Assembly: GCA_017395935.1 (NCBI GenBank) | Contig: JAFQNL010000008.1 | Location: 1 to 63,547 of the forward strand | DNA length: 63,547 nt | Direction: 5' to 3' | Origin: Oscillospiraceae bacterium | Lineage (GTDB): Bacteria > Bacillota > Clostridia > Oscillospirales > Oscillospiraceae | Shown here: in pieces, positions 50,919 to 63,430 of the stretch | How the letters are laid out: every line of letters starts with the position of its first letter | Numbering within the stretch: position 1 is the first letter of the stretch | Program-made: the position numbers and the translations under genes | Notes under the pieces: generated by a model | What the model saw: only the letters and a program-made list of their open reading frames with translations | What the model was told of the DNA's origin: nothing | Database searches by the model: none

Positions 50919-52397
50919 ATGGAGCAGAGCAAGCTGTATGAGGAGATCGCCCAGCGCACGGAGGGAGATATCTATATCGGAGTTGTAGGTCCGGTCAGAA
51001 CAGGGAAATCCACCTTTATCAAGCGCTTTATGGAGACGCTTGTTATTCCTAATATTGAGAATGTGTACCGCAGAGAGCGGGCTCGGGATGAGCTGCCTCA
51101 ATCCGGAAGTGGAAGAACGATCATGACAGCAGAACCTAAATTTGTTCCGGAAGAGGCGGCAACGCTGGAATTAGAGGACGGAATTCGTTTTTCGGTCCGA
51201 CTGATTGACTCAGTGGGATATTTGGTTAATGGCGCGGTGGGACAGATGGAGAATGACAGTCCAAGGATGGTCATGACTCCATGGTTTGACCACGAGATCC
51301 CAATGACCGAGGCGGCTGAAGTGGGAACCAGAAAGGTGATTGCAGAGCACTCTACCATCGGTATTGTTATTACCACCGATGGGACCATTACTGAGATAGC
51401 CAGAGAAGACTATCTGGAAGCAGAGTCCAGAGTAATACAGGAGTTGAAGCGACTGGGAAAACCATTTCTTGTTCTGGTTAACTCGCAGGAACCGGAGTCT
51501 GACCGGGCAAAGGCTATCGTAAACGATATTTCTGCTCGGTATGGTGTCAGTACCCTTGCCGTCAATTGCTTTGAACTGCAGGAGAGGGATATCAGCAATA
51601 TAATCGCCCACGTACTCTATGAATTTCCTCTGAAGGAGCTGGATATCTATCTTCCGTCCTGGGTAGAGGCGCTGGAATATGAGCATCCGATCAAGCGGGA
51701 AATATACGAGAGTGTGCTCAAGAACGGCCGGGAGATTCGAAGAATCCGGCAGGTTCAGGAGTGCCTGCAGCCGCTTACCGCCTGTGACAGCGTCAGCCGC
51801 TGCGAGATGGTCAAAATTGATCTGGGGAGGGGAGTTGCTGAGGCACGGCTGGAAGTGCCCAGAGAGCTCTTCTACGGCACTCTGAGCAGCCAATCTGGGT
51901 TCAAGGTCAGCAATGACGGTGACTTGATTCAGTTGCTTACTGAGCTGTCAGCGGTTAAGAAAGAGTATGATAAAGTTGGCGCGGCCATTGCCAGTGTACG
52001 CGAGACCGGTTACGGCATTGTTGTTCCGACGATTGAGGAATTGATGCTGGAAGAACCCGAGATCATGCGGCAGGGAGGACGCTATGGTGTCAAACTCCGT
52101 GCCAGCGCGCCATCAATTCATATGTTAAGAGCGGATATCAAGACGGTGATTTCACCCATAGTAGGCAGCGAAAAGCAGAGTGAGGAGATGATCCACTATC
52201 TGCTGGAGGAATTTGAAGGGGATACAAAGAAGATCTGGCAGTCCAACATCTTTGGAAAGTCCTTCCATGAGCTGGTTAACGAGGATCTCCAGGCCAAGCT
52301 GAGCCGGATGCCGGAAGACGCCCGGAGCAAGCTCAGAGAGACATTGGAACGGATCGTGAATGAAGGAACAGGCGGCCTGATCTGCATTATTCTGTAA
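50919..52397 (+). CDS. spoIVA: Stage IV sporulation protein A
   Basis: A 492-residue ATPase that polymerises on the forespore surface as the coat foundation. Walker A GPVRTGKST lies at residues 24-32. The N-terminus (LYEEIAQRTEGDIYIGVVGPV) and the C-terminal end (RIVNEGTGGLICIIL) are the conserved SpoIVA ends; the tail is what reaches SpoVM. It directly follows sipL, so anchor, adaptor and polymer genes are together. Confidence 0.96.
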   Translation: MEQSKLYEEIAQRTEGDIYIGVVGPVRTGKSTFIKRFMETLVIPNIENVYRRERARDELPQSGSGRTIMTAEPKFVPEEAATLELEDGIRFSVRLIDSVGYLVNGAVGQMENDSPRMVMTPWFDHEIPMTEAAEVGTRKVIAEHSTIGIVITTDGTITEIAREDYLEAESRVIQELKRLGKPFLVLVNSQEPESDRAKAIVNDISARYGVSTLAVNCFELQERDISNIIAHVLYEFPLKELDIYLPSWVEALEYEHPIKREIYESVLKNGREIRRIRQVQECLQPLTACDSVSRCEMVKIDLGRGVAEARLEVPRELFYGTLSSQSGFKVSNDGDLIQLLTELSAVKKEYDKVGAAIASVRETGYGIVVPTIEELMLEEPEIMRQGGRYGVKLRASAPSIHMLRADIKTVISPIVGSEKQSEEMIHYLLEEFEGDTKKIWQSNIFGKSFHELVNEDLQAKLSRMPEDARSKLRETLERIVNEGTGGLICIIL

Positions 52398-56017: not shown

Positions 56018-56482
56018 ATGAATTCTGATTGCGAGCGTAAGAAATGTTTTCCGGAGCCCTCGGTGGAGGTGGCTGTAGTGAACGCGGAAAAGAGACGGCA
56101 GTTGGCAGTGCCTATTGTTGAAGCTCAAAAGGACGCTGAGCCGGTCTATGGTAAGCAAGAGGCGCTGGCTCAGGGAACTCTCTTTCCCGAGCTGGATCTT
56201 CCTTTTCATCTGATGGTCAAGGGAGTACCTGTTCCCTCCTCTCCCCTTTCCGATCTGCAGGCTTTGAGCTTTGTAGTAGCAGAGCTGGGGCTTTATCTGG
56301 ACACGCATCCGGATGACAAAGAGGCGTTTCGGATGTTTCAGTCCTATGTAAAGCTGGAAAAACAGGCCAGAGCCCGTTTTGAGGAAGATAAGTATCCTCT
56401 GGAGCAGTGCAGCGCGGCCCGGGACGACAGCTATACCTGGCTGAAGGATCCGTGGCCCTGGAATCTGCAGAAGGAGGTATAA
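56018..56482 (+). CDS. cotJAB: Fused spore coat proteins CotJA-CotJB
   Basis: A 154-residue protein joining two normally separate coat proteins. Residues about 30-62 (YGKQEALAQGTLFPELDLPF) are the CotJA signature. Residues about 78-154 are CotJB (LQALSFVVAELGLYLDTHPDD...TWLKDPWPWN). In Bacillus the cotJABC operon is sigma-E controlled and its products enter the inner coat together. AAGGAG lies 9 nt before ATG 56018. cotJC follows after 3 nt. Confidence 0.88.
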   Translation: MNSDCERKKCFPEPSVEVAVVNAEKRRQLAVPIVEAQKDAEPVYGKQEALAQGTLFPELDLPFHLMVKGVPVPSSPLSDLQALSFVVAELGLYLDTHPDDKEAFRMFQSYVKLEKQARARFEEDKYPLEQCSAARDDSYTWLKDPWPWNLQKEV

Positions 56483-56485
56483 GCC

Positions 56486-56689
56486 ATGTTTATCTATGAA
56501 AAGAAGCTTCAGTACCCGGTGAAGATTCAGAGACCCAATCCCAAACTGGCCTCTATCATTATCAGCCAGTACGGTGGACCGGACGGAGAACTGGCTGCCT
56601 CTCTGCGCTATCTGAGCCAGAGATACGCAATGCCTTACCCTGAGCTGAAGGGTTTGCTGACTGATATTGGTACAGTGGAGTTAAAATGA
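56486..56689 (+). pseudogene. cotJC: cotJC 5' segment, interrupted
   Basis: Codons 1-63 are a normal start of CotJC, the manganese-catalase-like coat protein (YEKKLQYPVKIQ, QYGGPDGELAASLRYLSQRY with a Glu ligand, LLTDIGT). After GGTACAG (56669-56675) the frame runs into foreign sequence: V-E-L-K, then TGA at 56687. The matching continuation E-E-L-G-H-L-E-M lies at 63191. The gene is therefore split by DNA insertion, not decayed. GAAGGAGGTATAAGCC precedes ATG 56486. Confidence 0.92.
56669..56675 (+). other. Left attachment core (attL)
   Basis: GGTACAG at the left cotJC break point; codons GGT-ACA encode Gly62-Thr63. Outside it is cotJC, inside it is element DNA. Confidence 0.8.
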
Positions 56690-56789
56690 TACCCGGCACA
56701 GGACAGGGTTCCTGTTTTATGCTGCTGCCGGCAGGATAAGCATCGATAAAATTCTAATTTTATCATATCAGGTGAGCGGATGTTTGGCA

Positions 56790-56829
56790 AATAAAGAAAA
56801 GACAGACAGCGCTTCGAACGCTGTCTGTC
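56790..56829 (-). terminator. Terminator of alpha-glucosidase gene
   Basis: An 11-bp perfect stem, GACAGACAGCG with CGCTGTCTGTC, over seven bases (56801-56829). On the minus strand TTTTCTTTATTT follows. Confidence 0.9.
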
Positions 56830-56846
56830 CCGGGTTGATAGGAAGT

Positions 56847-58466
56847 TTACTTTTTCTGGAGCATCATCCATGCCTCGTAGGGGCGCAGAGTGTCCTTGAG
56901 CGGGTAGTCATAGTTGCAGATGAGCACTTCACCATTCGTGGGCAGAGCCAGCTTCAACTCCTGATCAGTGAAGTTACAGGTCACCAGCAGGCGCTCAGAC
57001 TCGGTCTCACGAATATAGCAGAAATGGTTGGGATCGTCTGCCTTGTAGAGGGTGAAGTTGCCGGTTCGGAAGACTTCGTGCTCTTTGCGCAGAGCGACCA
57101 GCTTTTTGTAGTAGTAGAAGATGGAGTTGGGATCTTCCAGAGCGGCCTTGACGTTAATCTGCTTATAGTTCGGATTAACAGTAAGCCAGGGGGCACCGGT
57201 AGTGAAACCGGCATTGGGAGCATCCGACCACTGCATAGGAGTGCGTGCATTGTCGCGGCCCTTAGCGTGGATGGAGGCCATGATTTCGTCAAGAGGATAT
57301 CCCTTGCTCAGACGATCCTCATACATGTTCAGAATCTCTACATCTACATAGCCCTGAATAGGCAGGCGAATATTAGTCATGCCGATTTCTTCGCCTTGAT
57401 AGATATAGGGGGTTCCTTCCATACCGTGGAGCAGAGTACCCAGCATCTTGGCGGACTCCACACGGTATTCCTTATCGTTGCCCCAACGGGATACGATACG
57501 GGGCAGATCGTGATTGTTCAGAAAGAGGCTGTTCCAGCCAACGCCGTGAAGTCCCTGCTGCCAATGCTCAAATACCTTCTTCAGCTTTACCAGCGAGAGG
57601 TCTGCCAGATCCCATTTATCGCCGCCCGGCTGCTGATCCAGCTGCATGTGCTGGAACTGGAAGACCATACTCAACTCACTGCAGTCAGGAGCACTGTAAA
57701 GCTTGGCGCGCTCGACATTTGCGCCCCAAGCCTCACCGACAGTGACCAGGCCTTCTTCGCAGAATGCCTCCTGGGACAGTTCACGCAAAAACTCATGAAG
57801 TCTGGGTCCGTTAGAGGTAATGTAATGGTCGGGCTCTTTTGCAATCTGATCAATCACGTCCAGACGGAAGCCGCCGATTCCCTTCTTTACCCAGAAGCGG
57901 ATCATATCATACAGCTCACGGCGGAGCTGAGGATTCTCCCAGTTCAGGTCAGGCTGTTCAATGGCAAACTGATGGAAGTAATACTGGCCCAAATGAGGAA
58001 CCCAGGTCCATGCAGAGCCGCCGAAGGTGGCTTTCATATCGTTGGGCAGTTCATCAGGGGTACCGTCCCGCCAGACAAAGTAGTCGTGATAGGGATTATC
58101 TCGACTCTTAAGCGCCTCTTTGAACCAGATATGCTGGTCAGAGCAGTGGTTAAGGACGAGATCCATAATAATGGTGATATTCCGCTTGTCGGCCTCGCGG
58201 ATCAGTTCCTCCATATCCTCCATGGTACCAAAAACGGGATAGATTGCCTGATAGTCAGAAATATCATAACCATTGTCCCGCTGGGGAGATTGGCAGACGG
58301 GAGAAAGCCAGATACCATCAATTCCCAGCTCCTCCAGATAGTCCAAATGACTGATGATACCCTTCAGGTCACCGATGCCATCACCGTCAGTATCTTGAAA
58401 GCTTTTGGGATAGATCTGATAGAAAACAGCTGATTCCCACCAGCCGCGTTTTGTCTTGTCTAACAT
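56847..58466 (-). CDS. Alpha-glucosidase (GH13, oligo-1,6-glucosidase type)
   Basis: A 539-residue cytoplasmic glycoside hydrolase. The (beta/alpha)8 barrel carries the nucleophile Asp203 (GGFRLDVID), acid Glu245 (VGEAWG) and Asp320 (LNNHDLPR). YQIYPKSFQDTDGDGIGDL and QGEEIGMTN are typical of the oligo-1,6-glucosidase/alpha-glucosidase group. ATG 58466 is chosen since AAGGAGAG fits; a longer frame starts before it. An operator-like palindrome overlaps its promoter. It is cargo of the cotJC element and probably used in sugar breakdown. Confidence 0.92.
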   Translation of the reverse strand: MLDKTKRGWWESAVFYQIYPKSFQDTDGDGIGDLKGIISHLDYLEELGIDGIWLSPVCQSPQRDNGYDISDYQAIYPVFGTMEDMEELIREADKRNITIIMDLVLNHCSDQHIWFKEALKSRDNPYHDYFVWRDGTPDELPNDMKATFGGSAWTWVPHLGQYYFHQFAIEQPDLNWENPQLRRELYDMIRFWVKKGIGGFRLDVIDQIAKEPDHYITSNGPRLHEFLRELSQEAFCEEGLVTVGEAWGANVERAKLYSAPDCSELSMVFQFQHMQLDQQPGGDKWDLADLSLVKLKKVFEHWQQGLHGVGWNSLFLNNHDLPRIVSRWGNDKEYRVESAKMLGTLLHGMEGTPYIYQGEEIGMTNIRLPIQGYVDVEILNMYEDRLSKGYPLDEIMASIHAKGRDNARTPMQWSDAPNAGFTTGAPWLTVNPNYKQINVKAALEDPNSIFYYYKKLVALRKEHEVFRTGNFTLYKADDPNHFCYIRETESERLLVTCNFTDQELKLALPTNGEVLICNYDYPLKDTLRPYEAWMMLQKK

Positions 58467-58496
58467 GGTCCATCTCTCCTTGCTGATCATTTTCGA

Positions 58497-58526
58497 AGTA
58501 TAACAAATTCCGGAAACGATTCCGGA
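58497..58526 (-). promoter_or_regulatory. LacI/CcpA-like operator over alpha-glucosidase promoter
   Basis: TCCGGAA-ACGA-TTCCGGA (58509-58526) is a palindrome with a central CG, like LacI-family and cre sites. On the minus strand a TATACT -10 box (58502-58497) lies 6 nt downstream of it. The -35 box is poor. Repression lifted by sugar is likely. Confidence 0.65.
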
Positions 58527-58609
58527 GTGTTGTGAGACTACTTTAGCACATTATTGACCGCTTGTCTCTATCTATTTCAGACAAATTTGAAAATTTTTTC
58601 TGAACAGAA

Positions 58610-58646
58610 GAGTAATGCAGTGAGGAGTTCTGCTATAGCATTACTC
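58610..58646 (-). terminator. Possible terminator of recombinase operon
   Basis: GAGTAATGC (58610-58618) pairs with GCATTACTC (58638-58646). On the minus strand TTCTGTTC follows, so the T run is weak. It lies in the 242-bp gap between the recombinase and alpha-glucosidase genes. Confidence 0.45.
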
Positions 58647-58708
58647 GTCGTGCCGCATCCTATGATTTCTTCTATAAAGCAGAGTAAGGATTTTCCTCCG
58701 GACAGAGA

Positions 58709-60268
58709 TCAGCGAGCTCTTTTTATCTGGAAGTTCACTTCGTAACGGGCGCCGGCGAGGCTTACAGATATGTTGCCCTCTTTCTGAAGAGTGATCCGAT
58801 CGACCATGATCCGGCAAACCGGGTCAGGAAGGGCATCTTCTCTTAAAATGCTATTCAGTTGCTGTTGCAAGACGTCAGTCAGCTCCTGCTGCGTACCGGA
58901 GAACTGGTCAGCTGAGGCGGAAAGCTCTTGATCAATGGCTGACATTTCTTCCAGACAGTCTGCCTGAAGAAGATCCAGCTCTTCACGGGTGATCTCTCCT
59001 TGTAAGTAGGCGTTCAGGGCAATGGCACGACGATTCTGAAGGACAGCTTTTTGAGACAGCAGTTTTGTTCTTCTCTCCCCTGCCTTGAACTGTTCCTGAA
59101 GGATTGCGTGAACTGCTGCACGGGCGGTTGTAAGAATGACATCCTCTCTGCAGAGATCTGCACGCTCCAGAGCGATTTGAATGAGTCGTTTTCCATCCTC
59201 ATCACGAAGCATATAGCCGATATCACATCCTTGCAATATGCCGTTTTTCTCATATCTTATTGCTCCTTGAGAGCAGGCTGTTGCGCAGCGCCATTTTTTG
59301 ACCATGGTTCCGTTTCTGTTCTTCTTGCTTCTGAGCACACAGGAACTGCCGCAGCTGCCGCAGAATATCCTGCCTGAAAGAGGATAGCTAACGCTGGGAC
59401 CGGAAGCGGCAGAAGATCTGCGGCTTCTTCGGCTGAGTTCCAGCTGTGTAGCCAGCCAGAGTGTACGGTCAATAATGGCTTCGTGATGGTTTGGCAGGTA
59501 GATCTGCTTTTCGGGATCATGGTTGTACTTTTTTTGATGGGTGAGATAGTCTGGCGTCCATGTCTTTCCCTGGATCAGATCTCCAACATATTTTTCGTTT
59601 TTTAAAATCTTAATGATATGGGAAGGCTTCCACGATGTCTTACCAGTGGAAGCTGCAATCCCGGATTTTTCCAGCTCTCTGGCAATGACGGAGGCGCTCT
59701 TCTTCTCCAGTGTGTATTTTTCAAAGATTTGCTTTACTATAGCGGCACCTATGGGCTCAACAGATAATACACCGGCTTTGACCTGATAACCCAGGAGGGA
59801 TCGTCCGAAGACAACACCCCGCTCCATTTGCCGGAGCTGTCCCCAGCGAACCCGCAAAGAGGTCTTGCGACTTTCTTCCTGGGCGATGGAGGCCATTATG
59901 GACAGGCGTAATTCAGCATCCGGTTCTCTTGTGTCGATGCCATCAGTGAGAAAAATTACCCCTACGCCCAACCGGGCCAGCTCCCGGGTAAATACGATGG
60001 TGTCCAGCAGGTTTCGTGAAAAACGGCTGACCTCCTTTGAGAGAATCAATTGAAATTTACCATCTCTTGCGTCTTGGATCATATGGTTAAATTGTTCTCG
60101 GTGCCTGGTGGAAGTGCCTGTGATTCCTTCGTCTGCATAGATCTGATAGAGGATCCAGTCAGGATGATTCAGAATATAGGAGGAAAAATAGCGTTTTTGA
60201 GCGGAAAAAGAGTTGGCCTGATCAGCGTGGTCGGTGGAGACTCTGCAATATCCGGCTACCGGGATCAT
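58709..60268 (-). CDS. Large serine recombinase (SpoIVCA-like)
   Basis: A 519-residue site-specific recombinase. The catalytic domain is at residues 1-150, with nucleophile Ser11 in YCRVSTDH, the Arg in SRFSRN, and SIMASIAQEES. The 'recombinase' DNA-binding domain covers about 155-290. A zinc ribbon follows (C303-G-S-C306 and C328...C332), then a coiled-coil region (about 375-460), as in integrases that move phages and skin elements. It starts inside the stop of the 63-residue gene (ATGA overlap). It should recombine the two GGTACAG sites. Confidence 0.95.
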   Translation of the reverse strand: MIPVAGYCRVSTDHADQANSFSAQKRYFSSYILNHPDWILYQIYADEGITGTSTRHREQFNHMIQDARDGKFQLILSKEVSRFSRNLLDTIVFTRELARLGVGVIFLTDGIDTREPDAELRLSIMASIAQEESRKTSLRVRWGQLRQMERGVVFGRSLLGYQVKAGVLSVEPIGAAIVKQIFEKYTLEKKSASVIARELEKSGIAASTGKTSWKPSHIIKILKNEKYVGDLIQGKTWTPDYLTHQKKYNHDPEKQIYLPNHHEAIIDRTLWLATQLELSRRSRRSSAASGPSVSYPLSGRIFCGSCGSSCVLRSKKNRNGTMVKKWRCATACSQGAIRYEKNGILQGCDIGYMLRDEDGKRLIQIALERADLCREDVILTTARAAVHAILQEQFKAGERRTKLLSQKAVLQNRRAIALNAYLQGEITREELDLLQADCLEEMSAIDQELSASADQFSGTQQELTDVLQQQLNSILREDALPDPVCRIMVDRITLQKEGNISVSLAGARYEVNFQIKRAR

Positions 60269-60456
60269 GATAATTGATTTCCTTCCTCTTGGACGAGATA
60301 TTCAAGAGCATCGGTCAGCTGACTGTCGGTAAGCGCTCCTCTGTCCTTCAGAGCAATCAATAAAGCCTTGCATAGGTTGTTCTTCAAAGCGCTTTTCTGG
60401 CTGTCGCTGAGCGGAGGGATTTTTCCGACCAAAGAAAAAACTGTCCGTTTTGGCAT
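60265..60456 (-). CDS. 63-residue protein, candidate recombination directionality factor
   Basis: A small protein: basic start MPKRTVFSLVGKIPPL, then a helical region (SDSQKSALKNNLCKALLIAL and LTDSQLTDALEYLVQEE). ATG 60456 is chosen, 7 nt after AAGGAAGTG. Its stop overlaps the recombinase start, so the two are made together from one sigma-E-like promoter. Small proteins paired with serine recombinases often switch them to excision. I see no motif that proves this; a regulator is the other possibility. Confidence 0.55.
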   Translation of the reverse strand: MPKRTVFSLVGKIPPLSDSQKSALKNNLCKALLIALKDRGALTDSQLTDALEYLVQEEGNQLS

Positions 60457-60478
60457 ATCCATCACTTCCTTGTGGGCA

Positions 60479-60506
60479 ATGGTATGCGCTTGCGGACAGT
60501 TTATGA
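60479..60506 (-). promoter_or_regulatory. Sigma-E-like promoter of recombinase operon
   Basis: Minus strand: TCATAAA (60506-60500), with its ATA exactly 16 nt before ATACCAT (60485-60479). It fills the 50-bp gap between the yaaA stop and the start of the small gene. It fits mother-cell sigma-E and has the same -10 and spacing as the cotJ promoter. Confidence 0.6.
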
Positions 60507-61268
60507 TCAGATGATTGATTCGGCAGGACTGCGCAGGAACACGAATGTACTTTGCTCAGAGTGTGCGGGAGAAAAGGAAAAGCCAAGCCGGTTAAAGTTT
60601 TGGATCGCTTCGGGCTCGGTACAATGGGTTTCTGCAAGATAGCGGACCATCTCTCCTCGTGCCATTTTGCACATGGTGCCCTTTTCAACGACCTTGCCGT
60701 TTTTTTCTTCACCAAATACGCAGGTTATGAAGCGCACATTCTCGGGAAGAAATCTGGAAATACAGATACTGTATTCTTTGGATGCCAGATTCAGAATACA
60801 GTTTGTTTCGGCAGTGAGGGCTTTGGCAAGGGTATCACTCCAGTAGGCGTACAGATCTTTGCCCTCTCCAACCCTGAGTTTTGCCTGCATTTCTAGCCGG
60901 TATGGCGTCACTCCATCAAATGGCTTCAATATGCCATAGAAACCGGACAGAATTCGAAGATGTTCCTGAATATAGTGGTATTCTTCTCTAGAAAACACAT
61001 TGGGAGCCATGTGCTGATACTGTATACCCTCATAGGCAAGCACTGCAGGTGTCAGGCGGTTGTGTAAGTCCATATTTTCCAGCCTCTGGATATTGAGCTG
61101 AGCGATCTGGTCATTACACTTCCAGAGTTTTTTCAACTCCTCGCCGGACATGGATCTCAAAATCCTGACAAGCTGCTCAGTCCTTGGAAGAAATACGGGC
61201 AGATCCTGATAGGGCAAGCTGTCAGTATCCACTTTCATTTTCTTTGCGGGAGAAATAATGATCCTCAT
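60507..61268 (-). CDS. yaaA: Peroxide stress protein YaaA
   Basis: A 253-residue DUF328/UPF0246 protein. It begins MRIIISPAKKM, the family signature, and has the central LSGFYGILKPFDGVTPYRLEM. YaaA lowers free iron and limits oxidative DNA damage under peroxide. It overlaps the rhodanese gene stop by 4 nt, as the last member of a five-gene operon. It ends right where the recombinase promoter begins. Confidence 0.93.
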   Translation of the reverse strand: MRIIISPAKKMKVDTDSLPYQDLPVFLPRTEQLVRILRSMSGEELKKLWKCNDQIAQLNIQRLENMDLHNRLTPAVLAYEGIQYQHMAPNVFSREEYHYIQEHLRILSGFYGILKPFDGVTPYRLEMQAKLRVGEGKDLYAYWSDTLAKALTAETNCILNLASKEYSICISRFLPENVRFITCVFGEEKNGKVVEKGTMCKMARGEMVRYLAETHCTEPEAIQNFNRLGFSFSPAHSEQSTFVFLRSPAESII

Positions 61269-61648
61269 TCTTCTACCTCGTAGGGCCAGGTACTGATGCC
61301 GCCAAACTCATAGATATTGGTGTAACCCAGCTCGGCAAGGGCGCTGGAAGCGGTTTTGCTGCGGTTTCCGCTGCGGCAGTACACCAATACAACCGAGTCA
61401 TAGGACGGAATCACGGAAGCGGCTGTCTCCTGAGAAATTGTCCCGACAGGAAGCAGAACCGCATCAGGAATATGAGCGGCATCGAATTCGTCCTGCTCCC
61501 GGACATCCAGAATGACTACTTCCTGAGTGTCCATCATGGTCTTTGCCTCTTCCTGTGAAATCTGCTGATAGGTGTTCTCCACTTCTGTACCTCCACAACC
61601 GGTCAGTGCCAACAGCATAACTAAAATCAACGAAATCATATGTTTCAT
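61265..61648 (-). CDS. Rhodanese-like lipoprotein
   Basis: A 127-residue exported protein. The signal peptide ends in the lipobox LTGC (Cys18), so it is anchored to the membrane outside the cell. The rhodanese domain covers about 30-125, with active-site loop CRSGNRS, typical of single-domain sulfurtransferases. It could handle persulfides outside the cell. It overlaps the peroxidase gene by 4 nt. CAGGGAG lies before ATG 61648. Confidence 0.9.
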   Translation of the reverse strand: MKHMISLILVMLLALTGCGGTEVENTYQQISQEEAKTMMDTQEVVILDVREQDEFDAAHIPDAVLLPVGTISQETAASVIPSYDSVVLVYCRSGNRSKTASSALAELGYTNIYEFGGISTWPYEVEE

Positions 61649-62112
61649 AGATATTCTCCCTGAAGATAGCTCAGAATTTCAGCCGCATTTGTATCGGGTT
61701 TGACCTTTGGCATAATTTTTTCAATCTTGCCCTGTTCATCAATAATGAAGGTAGTGCGCACTACACCCATACTGATCTTACCGTACAGTTTCTTCTCCTG
61801 CCAGACTCCGTAGGCCTGAATGGCTTGCAGTTCCGGATCGGACAGCAGAATGAAGGGCAGATCGTGTTTCTGAGCAAATTTCTGGTGAGAGGCTACGCTG
61901 TCACGACTTACACCGATCACTACCACATCGTTTGCTTTGAAGCGCTCATAAGCGGCGGCAAAAGCACAGGCCTGCCGGGTGCAGCCGGGTGTGTTGTCCT
62001 TCGGGTAGAAATAAAGAACGACTTTTTTCCCAAGAAAAGCGGATAGGCTGACTGAGTTGCCATCCTTATCGCTCAGAGTAAAATCAGGTGCTTTCAGACC
62101 AATTTCCAGCAT
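61645..62112 (-). CDS. bcp: Thioredoxin-dependent thiol peroxidase (Bcp/PrxQ)
   Basis: A 155-residue peroxiredoxin that reduces hydroperoxides. The peroxidatic cysteine is in PGCTRQACAF (Cys45), with the resolving cysteine five residues on (Cys50), the PrxQ pattern. FYPKDNTPGCT is the family motif. AAAGGAG precedes ATG 62112. It is in an operon with other redox genes. Confidence 0.95.
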   Translation of the reverse strand: MLEIGLKAPDFTLSDKDGNSVSLSAFLGKKVVLYFYPKDNTPGCTRQACAFAAAYERFKANDVVVIGVSRDSVASHQKFAQKHDLPFILLSDPELQAIQAYGVWQEKKLYGKISMGVVRTTFIIDEQGKIEKIMPKVKPDTNAAEILSYLQGEYL

Positions 62113-62115
62113 AGT

Positions 62116-62652
62116 TTATTCTCCTTTGACCAAATAGTTATAAAGTTCGTCAGCGAAGGCAATATGGCCTTTCTCCGTCAGGTGTACGCCGTCATAGGCC
62201 AGGGAGATATTCCACTCCCCTGCATCCGCAAAGCGGACGCCCAGACGCTTTGCAAGGCATCTGTAGTGTTTGCCAAGCGCGCTTGAGCTGTCGATCAGTT
62301 TTTTGCTCTGCACCCACTGACCGAGCTTCATAGGTGGAGGTGCAATCAGAAGGATCTTATCTCGCTTCAGAGCGAGGGAATTTAGAAACCATTCCATTTT
62401 CTCGCAGGCAGCTTCCGGAGAACGGGCCTGCAGCAGATCATTGGTGCCAAGCATGATGATCAGCAGATCTGTGTCTTTCGGAAAGAAAACGGATCCTGTC
62501 TGGATCTCACGGCCGTTCATTCCCTCGTTTATAATGTTCCAGCCTGTTTTGACTGCCAGAATTTCCGGCCAGGCCTTGTCATATTGTCCGCCAAAATACC
62601 CTCTTGGATCGTAGCCGTAGGTATTTGAATCGCCGTAGCAGACTACTTTCAT
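62116..62652 (-). CDS. SGNH/GDSL-family hydrolase
   Basis: A 178-residue esterase-like enzyme. The catalytic serine is in YGDSNTYG (Ser9), block II glycine in NEGMNG, the Asn in GTNDLL, and Asp-x-x-His in YDGVHLT. There is no signal peptide. It probably cleaves acetyl or acyl esters from sugars or lipids. It overlaps the upstream gene by 4 nt. Confidence 0.9.
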   Translation of the reverse strand: MKVVCYGDSNTYGYDPRGYFGGQYDKAWPEILAVKTGWNIINEGMNGREIQTGSVFFPKDTDLLIIMLGTNDLLQARSPEAACEKMEWFLNSLALKRDKILLIAPPPMKLGQWVQSKKLIDSSSALGKHYRCLAKRLGVRFADAGEWNISLAYDGVHLTEKGHIAFADELYNYLVKGE

Positions 62653-63056
62653 TGCAGCTTCCCTTTCTGAATCCGCCGCTTCAGGTCCAGCACCTTTTCC
62701 TCTATCTGTTGTATAGTGCAGAGGAAAGCTTCATCCTCTTTGCCGCTGGGATCTTCCAGCCCCCAGTCTTCCCGATAAGAGCAGGGCAGGAAGGGGCACT
62801 GAACATTGCAGCCCATAGTGATAACGATGTCGATCGCGGGGAGCGCTGCAAGAAGCTTGCTGTACTGCTGATTCTCCATGTCAATACCGTGGGTCTGTTT
62901 CATCAGTCGGACAGCATCGGAATTGATCTGAGGTTTGGTTTCCGTACCGGCAGAATAGCTTTCAAAGCAATCGGCGCAGAGCTTTTTGCCTAAAGCCTCC
63001 GCAATCTGGCTGCGGCAGGAGTTGTGAACGCAAATAAAGGCAACACGGGGTTTCAT
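62649..63056 (-). CDS. arsC: Arsenate reductase, thioredoxin-coupled ArsC type
   Basis: A 135-residue protein of the low-molecular-weight phosphatase fold. CVHNSCRS is the C-x5-R phosphate loop. Further cysteines in GCNVQCPFLPC fit the relay cysteines of thioredoxin-linked ArsC, and REDWGLEDPSGK is the ArsC-specific block. It would reduce arsenate to arsenite; no arsenite pump is nearby. ATG 63056 is chosen for AAAGGAGGACAGAT. It is the first gene of the five-gene operon. Confidence 0.88.
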   Translation of the reverse strand: MKPRVAFICVHNSCRSQIAEALGKKLCADCFESYSAGTETKPQINSDAVRLMKQTHGIDMENQQYSKLLAALPAIDIVITMGCNVQCPFLPCSYREDWGLEDPSGKEDEAFLCTIQQIEEKVLDLKRRIQKGKLQ

Positions 63057-63106
63057 ATCTGTCCTCCTTTGAGAAGAATAAAAGAAAGTGCGATCCTGTG
63101 TCATAT

Positions 63107-63135
63107 ATCATAACAGCTCTTTAAGGCTTTGGCAA
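63107..63135 (-). promoter_or_regulatory. Sigma-A promoter of arsC-bcp-yaaA operon
   Basis: Minus strand TTGCCA (63135-63130), 17-nt spacer, TATGAT (63112-63107). It lies within 80 bp of the right attachment core. Confidence 0.75.
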
Positions 63136-63184
63136 AGAGAAATGAGAGCAGCGGCTCTTGTGGTGTCAGATTGAACCCTCCGTC

Positions 63185-63191
63185 GGTACAG
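63185..63191 (+). other. Right attachment core (attR)
   Basis: GGTACAG at the right cotJC break point. Left of it is element DNA, right of it cotJC continues in frame with Glu64-Glu65. Confidence 0.8.
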
Positions 63192-63430
63192 AAGAGTTGG
63201 GACACCTTGAAATGGTAGCATCGCTGGTCCATCAGCTGACCCGCAATCTGAGTGATGAGCAGCTCCAGAGCAGTGACTTTGCCCCTTATTTTGTTGATCA
63301 CGGTGTAGGGATCTATCCTGCGGCTGCTGCTGGGTTCCCTTGGAACGCTGCCGCAATTCAGGTTAAAGGCGATGTAATCTGCGATCTGACTGAGGACCTG
63401 GCGGCTGAGGAGACTTTTAATTATAGGTGA
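63185..63430 (+). pseudogene. cotJC: cotJC middle segment, again interrupted
   Basis: Reading on from GGTACA gives EELGHLEM, with the Glu and His manganese ligands, then HGVGIYPAAAAGFPW and DVICDLTEDLAAEE, all standard CotJC. This is about codons 62-137. After AAEE the frame changes to T-F-N-Y-R and stops at 63430. The last ~55 residues, including the final His ligand region, are missing. It has no start of its own. A second element probably begins near 63410. Confidence 0.88.

Follow-up and report, generated by a model that had tools for sequence, protein, structure and literature searches.

Skin-like islands docked at four points of the spore catalase gene cotJC in gut Oscillospirales, and their probable excision during sporulation

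In a 63,547-nucleotide contig of an Oscillospiraceae bacterium (assembly GCA_017395935.1, contig JAFQNL010000008.1; hereafter the window), the spore catalase gene cotJC is interrupted by a 6.5-kb island that encodes its own large serine recombinase. We think it probable that this island is one of many skin-like elements that dock in cotJC and are cut out during sporulation. The gene is broken at the same few points across the order Oscillospirales: the ends of the islands share core sequences true to the codon register, each recombinase lineage is tied to one point of cotJC, empty sites exist in relatives, islands have moved horizontally and the split genes have low dN/dS.

The window is the entire contig C40 of a 2.07-Mb genome, G000, assembled in 46 contigs (97.05% complete, 0.16% contaminated). 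Its cotJC was identified by a PF05067 match with metal-ligand motifs; it starts at 56486 and is interrupted at codon 63 by a 6,516-bp element, the distance that also separates two copies of GGTACAG at the two ends (Table 1). The heptamer alone is uninformative, with seven matches in the window against 3.8 expected and as many in 10 of 100 shuffled sequences. The two copies at the split, however, repeat in direct orientation and keep the codon register, and joining at them is in frame. A first-pass annotation, made from the sequence of this stretch, had proposed exactly this break, with identical GGTACAG ends and an in-frame join, and both the coordinates and the PF05067 matches of the two flanks agree with it. 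Its claim that the element encodes a large serine recombinase is borne out by matches to the Resolvase and Recombinase domains; the best NCBIfam match of the protein is XisF, far under cut-off (105.5 vs 375 bits).

Comparison with other genomes places this break at one of four points, numbered here on a 199-position profile built from seven intact proteins. Site 1 lies at G30-P32 (GGPDGE), site 2, that of the window element, at G62-T63 (DIGTEE), site 3 at A134-E136 (AAEQKAR) and site 4 at F173-E175 (HFQRFGE). The last was found later than the others, as abrupt ends past HFQRFGE; a separate C-terminus, in register, was found in four of the ten candidate genomes with a downstream stretch (G414, G216, G068 and G047). 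The C-terminal piece left by a break at site 4 is so short that PF05067 does not register it. All four break segments align with Alr3090, a manganese catalase of solved structure. The metal ligands we take, by comparison with the Lactobacillus enzyme, to be E35, E65/H68, E136 and H169, and on that assignment each of the four break points lies at a manganese-ligand motif. The first-pass annotation had made the same point for site 2, and the alignment of DIGTEE with Alr3090 supports it, the identity of the ligand being our assumption.

To see how common such breaks are, we drew 395 genomes from the order, each at least 90% complete, of which 344 match PF05067. The best PF05067 matches are only partial (E above 1e-45) in 136 of the 344, as read from the table of matches; these comprise 130 re-listed genomes and six others (G000, G008, G036, G047, G050 and G056). 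Complementary pairs of cotJC pieces, counted wherever the pieces lie within one genome, were found in 103 of the 344 (G000 at two sites, G008 and G047 being added to 100). Within the 130, 101 genomes have at least one pair, or 100 without G141, which was removed from the site-1 pairs as a frameshifted gene on one short stretch; 14 have pairs at two sites, two at three sites and 29 have none. By site, the pairs number 36 at site 1 (35 without G141), 48 at site 2 and 35 at site 3. Almost all internal ends (134 of 135) and all 136 internal starts fall inside three zones. The zones cover a wide share of the protein, about 70 of 185 positions, and their limits were set only once the data had been seen and 16 rows removed. 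The rows left out were the sole rows of G034, G370, G351, G272, G198 and G245, a single weak row from each of G095, G102, G150, G179, G204, G368 and G068, two rows of G208 and, where G141 had two 1-32 rows, one of them. The majority, in longer frames, look like another protein family.

Many relatives carry an intact cotJC, and other orders of the class also show partial best matches to PF05067. The control gene spoIVA, sought in the same 395 genomes, was matched in 372, with two partial matches in a single genome (G026) and single weaker matches in G112 and G173. The double match in G026 may come from a break between contigs or from one more sporulation gene that is interrupted. Split cotJC genes are found in genomes of one or two contigs (G223, G176, G420, G129, G298 and G196) and in named isolates: Agathobaculum massiliense Marseille-P4005 (G298), Flavonifractor sp. 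An10 (G414), Pseudoflavonifractor capillosus An386a (G143) and Butyricicoccus sp. Marseille-Q5471 (G216).

The junctions were examined in 62 pairs at sites 1-3, from a part of the 103 genomes that we chose and whose DNA was retrieved, the window genome included. In register, the two flanks have five or more identical nucleotides in a row in 41 of the 62 pairs and eight or more in 25; at any of 18 other shifts, runs of five or more occur in at most six junctions and runs of eight or more in none. Three right halves at site 2 (G339, G182 and G325) fall out of register through indels in the profile alignment and were kept in these counts. Both pieces lie on one contig in 52 pairs, always on the same strand, and the elements measure 2,319-52,478 bp, with a median of 8.6 kb. 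At the lower end, those of G358 (2.3 kb) and G403 (2.4 kb) have one or no ORF of 80 amino acids besides the recombinase.

Two genomes outside this set have a different arrangement. In G129, a single contig, the site-2 pieces lie at C1:198620-198805 (-) and C1:873266-873640 (-), some 675 kb apart, or about 2 Mb the other way if the chromosome is circular, and rejoining them by recombination would divide the chromosome in two. In G411, the pieces on C1 lie at 71980-72309 (-), 112357-112455 (-) and 129685-129852 (+); the third is inverted and therefore, unless misassembled, would be rejoined by inversion, not excision. Two contigs of G241 (C26 and C30; loci L219 and L220) stop, at their first bases, precisely at the site-2 break; they share no more than GAA there and carry no sequence of the element.

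The recombinases follow the break points closely. In a tree of 78 recombinases, 73 of them labelled by hand with the adjoining cotJC site, all 13 site-1 recombinases form part of one clade (support 100/97) and all 18 site-3 recombinases of another (100/100), while the 37 site-2 recombinases fall into two clades, of 33 (100/100, including that of the window) and of four (100/100). The five site-4 recombinases group together with the unlabelled recombinase of G403 (100/100). The labels require six changes on the tree against 36.9 in shuffles, none of 200 shuffles being as low, although some placements rest on long branches. The R-x-S motif is present in 72 of the 73 labelled proteins, the exception being a frame truncated where the retrieved sequence ends, and in eight recombinases the catalytic Arg-Val-Ser (R9, V10, S11) is invariant. 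Single site-2 gaps in G216 (L099/L100) and G385 (L101) hold recombinases of both site-2 clades, so that islands seem to be stacked there.

The same association emerges from the reverse direction. Eight site-2 recombinases were used as queries against contigs of 84,980 species, and the best 80 of 332 relatives were kept. A cotJC piece broken at site 2 lies in the stretch around 73 of these 80, another broken piece around one, none around six (three of them on contigs under 7.1 kb), and an intact cotJC around none. Nine of the 80 contigs were already in the earlier set, so the search is mostly, not wholly, independent.

Selection on the split genes was gauged by codon comparison of the pieces, with eight codons trimmed at breaks and only pairs with dS of 0.05-1.6 used. 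Median dN/dS is 0.166 between split genes (126 pairs), 0.173 between intact genes (143) and 0.198 for mixed pairs (289), values drawn from non-independent pairs and mixed with time spent as an intact gene before insertion. More telling are pairs that share a split: G176 and G420, split at site 1, give 0.014 at dS 0.32, and G008 and G015, split at site 3, give 0.025 at dS 0.47. From these codon comparisons, the split pieces look to be under purifying selection, like intact genes. Comparison with relatives having an uninterrupted gene, suggested in the first-pass annotation, revealed an empty site within the genus of the window genome: G007 is intact where G008 is split at site 3, at 94.8% nucleotide identity, and joining gains or loses no codon. 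Nor is the split a decayed relic common to all relatives and accompanied by a dead recombinase, an outcome that the annotation had also considered: intact relatives exist, dN/dS is low and the R-x-S motif is kept.

The islands are also mobile. G273 and G115 belong to different families, and their recombinases are 94.9% identical and their DNA 96% identical over 2,052 bp although their cotJC genes are only 71.7% identical, which indicates recent transfer. Multiple occupancy reaches its extreme in the isolate G216, where cotJC is in five pieces (C1:205516, 212870, 262174 and 274764, with the C-terminus further on). Joined in register, the five give one full-length frame with no stop and all four motifs.

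The gene in the window genome is likewise broken more than once. The downstream ORF (63185-63430) lacks the cotJC end: it leaves cotJC at about 63407 (codon ~136) and then stops. The missing third piece lies on contig C6 at 274866-275015 (PF05067 149-198), 127 bp from the end of that contig, and cotJC of this genome is in three pieces. The first-pass annotation had held that a single excision would yield an intact gene; the codon-63 junction is indeed in register, but, with a second break near codon 136, one excision would not restore cotJC and two would be needed. We are less sure what the second interruption is than we are of the first. That the contig ends trace a mixed population was considered and dropped, since a search of the genome for the C40 end turned up no further copy. 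A PF07508 protein on contig C7, considered as recombinase for the second break, is sister to, and outside, the site-3 clade, is 32% identical to a site-3 recombinase and has no cotJC piece seen beside it.

The contents of the site-2 element (Table 1) largely bear out the earlier description of it as non-phage. Among its eight ORFs there is no phage family in Pfam and no phage structural or replication gene; against PHROG, the recombinase matches integrase, the GDSL hydrolase weakly matches a tail-fibre family (2.9e-5), and for the others there are matches to families without known function or none. Other islands are similar, their 20 ORFs being metabolic, regulatory or without family apart from one lysozyme-type GH25 and one amidase. 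YaaA is found in three of 32 genomes of the window genus, in two of them (G000 and G025) within a site-2 element. Across 107 loci with site-2 recombinases, YaaA occurs in 10 (59-72% identical) and the peroxiredoxin in nine (78-85% identical), counts in which L038 and L210 are the same genome, L189 has its YaaA beyond the ends of the element, and the stretches around L184 and L186 lack a cotJC piece. That peroxide defence is carried by an island interrupting a catalase gene is suggestive only.

Table 1. Features of the window around the interrupted cotJC gene
Feature	Position	Strand	Remarks
spoIVA ATPase domain, spore-former marker, same contig	50919..51629	+	PF09547 6.4e-117
CotJA + CotJB domain ORF, immediately 5' of cotJC	56018..56482	+	Pfam CotJB 3.3e-24, CotJA 4.7e-10
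cotJC piece 1, codons 1-63, ends in left core repeat	56486..56675	+	PF05067 (Mn_catalase) 1-67, 2.3e-21; cotJC profile 1-66
Left core repeat GGTACAG, attL core, site 2	56669..56675	+	
Site-2 intervening element, 6,516 bp	56669..63184	.	
Cargo: GH13 enzyme, phosphotrehalase-like (TreC), between attL and recombinase	56847..58490	-	Above NF008183 cut-off, below TIGR02403 cut-off
Large serine recombinase, 519 aa, main site-2 clade	58709..60268	-	Resolvase + Recombinase domains; zinc-ribbon match below cut-off
66-aa ORF overlapping recombinase start, candidate recombination directionality factor	60265..60465	-	Matches small ORF 5' of site-2 recombinase L063, E 6e-5
Cargo: YaaA, peroxide stress protein	60507..61268	-	PF03883 5.6e-81; relatives within other site-2 elements
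Cargo: rhodanese-domain protein	61265..61648	-	73% identical copy in G025 element
Cargo: AhpC/TSA (Bcp-type) peroxiredoxin	61645..62112	-	78-85% identical copies in 9/107 loci
Cargo: GDSL/SGNH hydrolase	62116..62652	-	Weak PHROG tail-fibre match 2.9e-5
Cargo: low-molecular-weight phosphatase family protein	62649..63104	-	PF01451 1.8e-16
Right core repeat GGTACAG, attR core, site 2	63185..63191	+	
cotJC piece 2, codons 63 to ~136	63185..63408	+	PF05067 63-151, 6.3e-14; cotJC profile 60-137
Second cotJC break, site 3	63407..63408	+	GA common in register with C6 flank; further AGA common 3 nt on
Start of second, unassembled insert, cut by contig end	63409..63547	.	

Candidate directionality factors are small ORFs that lie 5' of many of the recombinases. 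Those of 20 of the 37 site-2 recombinases belong to one family, those of 16 of the 18 site-3 recombinases to a second; the examples tried match no Pfam or NCBIfam family above cut-off. The 66-amino acid ORF of the window element, which has no Pfam, NCBIfam or PHROG family, weakly matches the small ORF of one other site-2 recombinase, L063 (E 6e-5). For comparison, CD1234, the skin factor of Clostridioides difficile, is 72 amino acids long (PMC5025042; this and the other papers cited are drawn on in part). Immediately upstream of cotJC in the window, one single ORF holds both the CotJA and the CotJB domain.

Taken together, these results suggest the following scheme. The 6.5-kb island would have integrated site-specifically at codon 63 of cotJC by means of its own large serine recombinase. 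In the mother cell, where cotJC is presumably expressed, the recombinase and a directionality factor would recombine attL with attR and the island would leave as a circle, restoring the manganese-site codons of cotJC while the spore genome retains the island. On a wider scale, cotJC serves islands as a recurrent dock, its four docking points each lying at a metal-ligand motif. We go further, with rather less assurance but still as the likely case, and propose that gut Oscillospirales have in cotJC a bacterial gene with DNA introns: the four fixed docking points at manganese-ligand segments are served by dedicated recombinase lineages (two at site 2), up to four are occupied, and the islands are excised when the spore catalase is made, their vegetative cargo being kept by the germline and lost only by the doomed mother cell. 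The recurrent system is real and it looks functional; excision aside, its membership among sporulation gene-intervening elements is well supported.

Several points weigh against this scheme. Excision in sporulation is something we infer, no excised circle, joined cotJC or expression having been observed. Sigma-E-like promoters, scanned for with a -35/-10 pattern in the regions 5' of 69 of the 78 recombinases, are not enriched, with p<0.05 in 3 of 33 at site 2, 1 of 11 at site 1, 1 of 18 at site 3, 0 of 4 at site 4 and 0 of 3 others; a good-looking match at the window operon failed against shuffles (p=0.075). The attP of the window element is weakly palindromic, 57 of 1000 shuffles being equally good. 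The window genome offers a single unsaturated dN/dS comparison (0.126 with G001, at dS 1.53), and, of the intact cotJC genes compared with its own, the nearest has 74.6% identity. At its second break, in-register sharing amounts to GA and AGA only (2-3 nt runs), the arms are unlike those of the site-3 family, and no site-3-clade recombinase was found, the genome having three PF07508 proteins.

These points give room to other readings, which overlap, so that our estimates for them need not sum. Plain islands might use the conserved DNA of cotJC as attB, the gene being a dispensable casualty with no scheduled excision. Their cargo of metabolic and stress genes, which has no role in sporulation, their ordinary mobility, with near-identical recombinases across families, and the lack of a mother-cell promoter signal all fit this, but split genes keep open frames, with dN/dS as low as in intact genes and low also between genomes sharing a split. 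Up to four breaks occur in one gene with every piece conserved, and no full-length second copy was found in the 130 census genomes, which had been selected for partial matches only; we consider this reading unlikely. No better than unlikely, too, is a reversible switch acting in vegetative cells or at the level of the population, with excision tied to growth phase rather than to a terminal mother-cell event. The yin element of yabG was found excised at all time points (PMC10747680), and a mixture of joined and interrupted forms could explain the G241 contig ends at site 2; such ends also arise in other ways, however, and excision of skin in C. difficile requires a second, sporulation-controlled factor (PMC5025042).

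That the pieces are made as separate proteins and assemble, the DNA never being rejoined, would accord with downstream pieces whose open frames extend past the break. We regard it as very improbable, since the breaks cut metal-ligand motifs, the smallest piece is of about 25 amino acids, junctions share cores and the gaps hold recombinases. As for an artefact of assembly or binning, the window genome is a 46-contig assembly with its second break at contig ends, but the site-2 element is assembled through, splits are present in genomes of one or two contigs and in named isolates, and break points coincide across families; the chance of this is close to negligible. Skin-like islands cut out of cotJC during sporulation remain the reading that we prefer.

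If this is true, cotJC is the most often interrupted sporulation gene known to us, its four points would provide a natural series of recombinase specificities for one short gene, programmed DNA loss would be predicted in the mother cells of a large proportion of gut spore-formers, and broken or missing cotJC annotations would be explained. The islands supply paired att sites and recombinases, and the presence of the split in cultured isolates makes direct testing possible. The open-licence literature, in its listings and the openings of its abstracts, yielded no paper on an interrupted cotJC; the interrupted sporulation genes named there are sigK, spsM, spoVFB, spoVR, gerE and yabG.

Closest in kind is skin in sigK of Bacillus subtilis and C. 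difficile, where, as in cotJC, a mother-cell sporulation gene carries a large serine recombinase element and joining at a short core would restore the frame. The cotJC islands differ in the gene, in their mostly non-phage cargo and in having several recombinase lineages at four points, and their excision is predicted. The gin element in gerE of Bacillus cereus ATCC10987 is likewise not a prophage and encodes a serine recombinase with a small partner (GirX, 6.5 kDa), but is 28.6 kb long, has three recombinase genes and one insertion point, and its recombination has been demonstrated (PMC5595907). SPbeta in spsM, vfbin in spoVFB, vrin in spoVR and yin in yabG also interrupt sporulation genes and are excised, by a serine recombinase where this is stated; unlike the cotJC islands they are prophages or prophage-like, and the parts of those papers drawn on do not name cotJC as a target (PMC4191935, PMC10747680). 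Outside spore-formers, the interruption elements of heterocysts (in nifD, nifH and others) are developmentally excised and occur in several variants per gene, as in cotJC, but lie in cyanobacterial nitrogen-fixation genes and use both serine and tyrosine recombinases (PMC4874684). One cyanobacterial nifD carries four elements (PMC4874684), so that a gene interrupted many times over, as we describe here for cotJC, has a precedent outside spore-formers.

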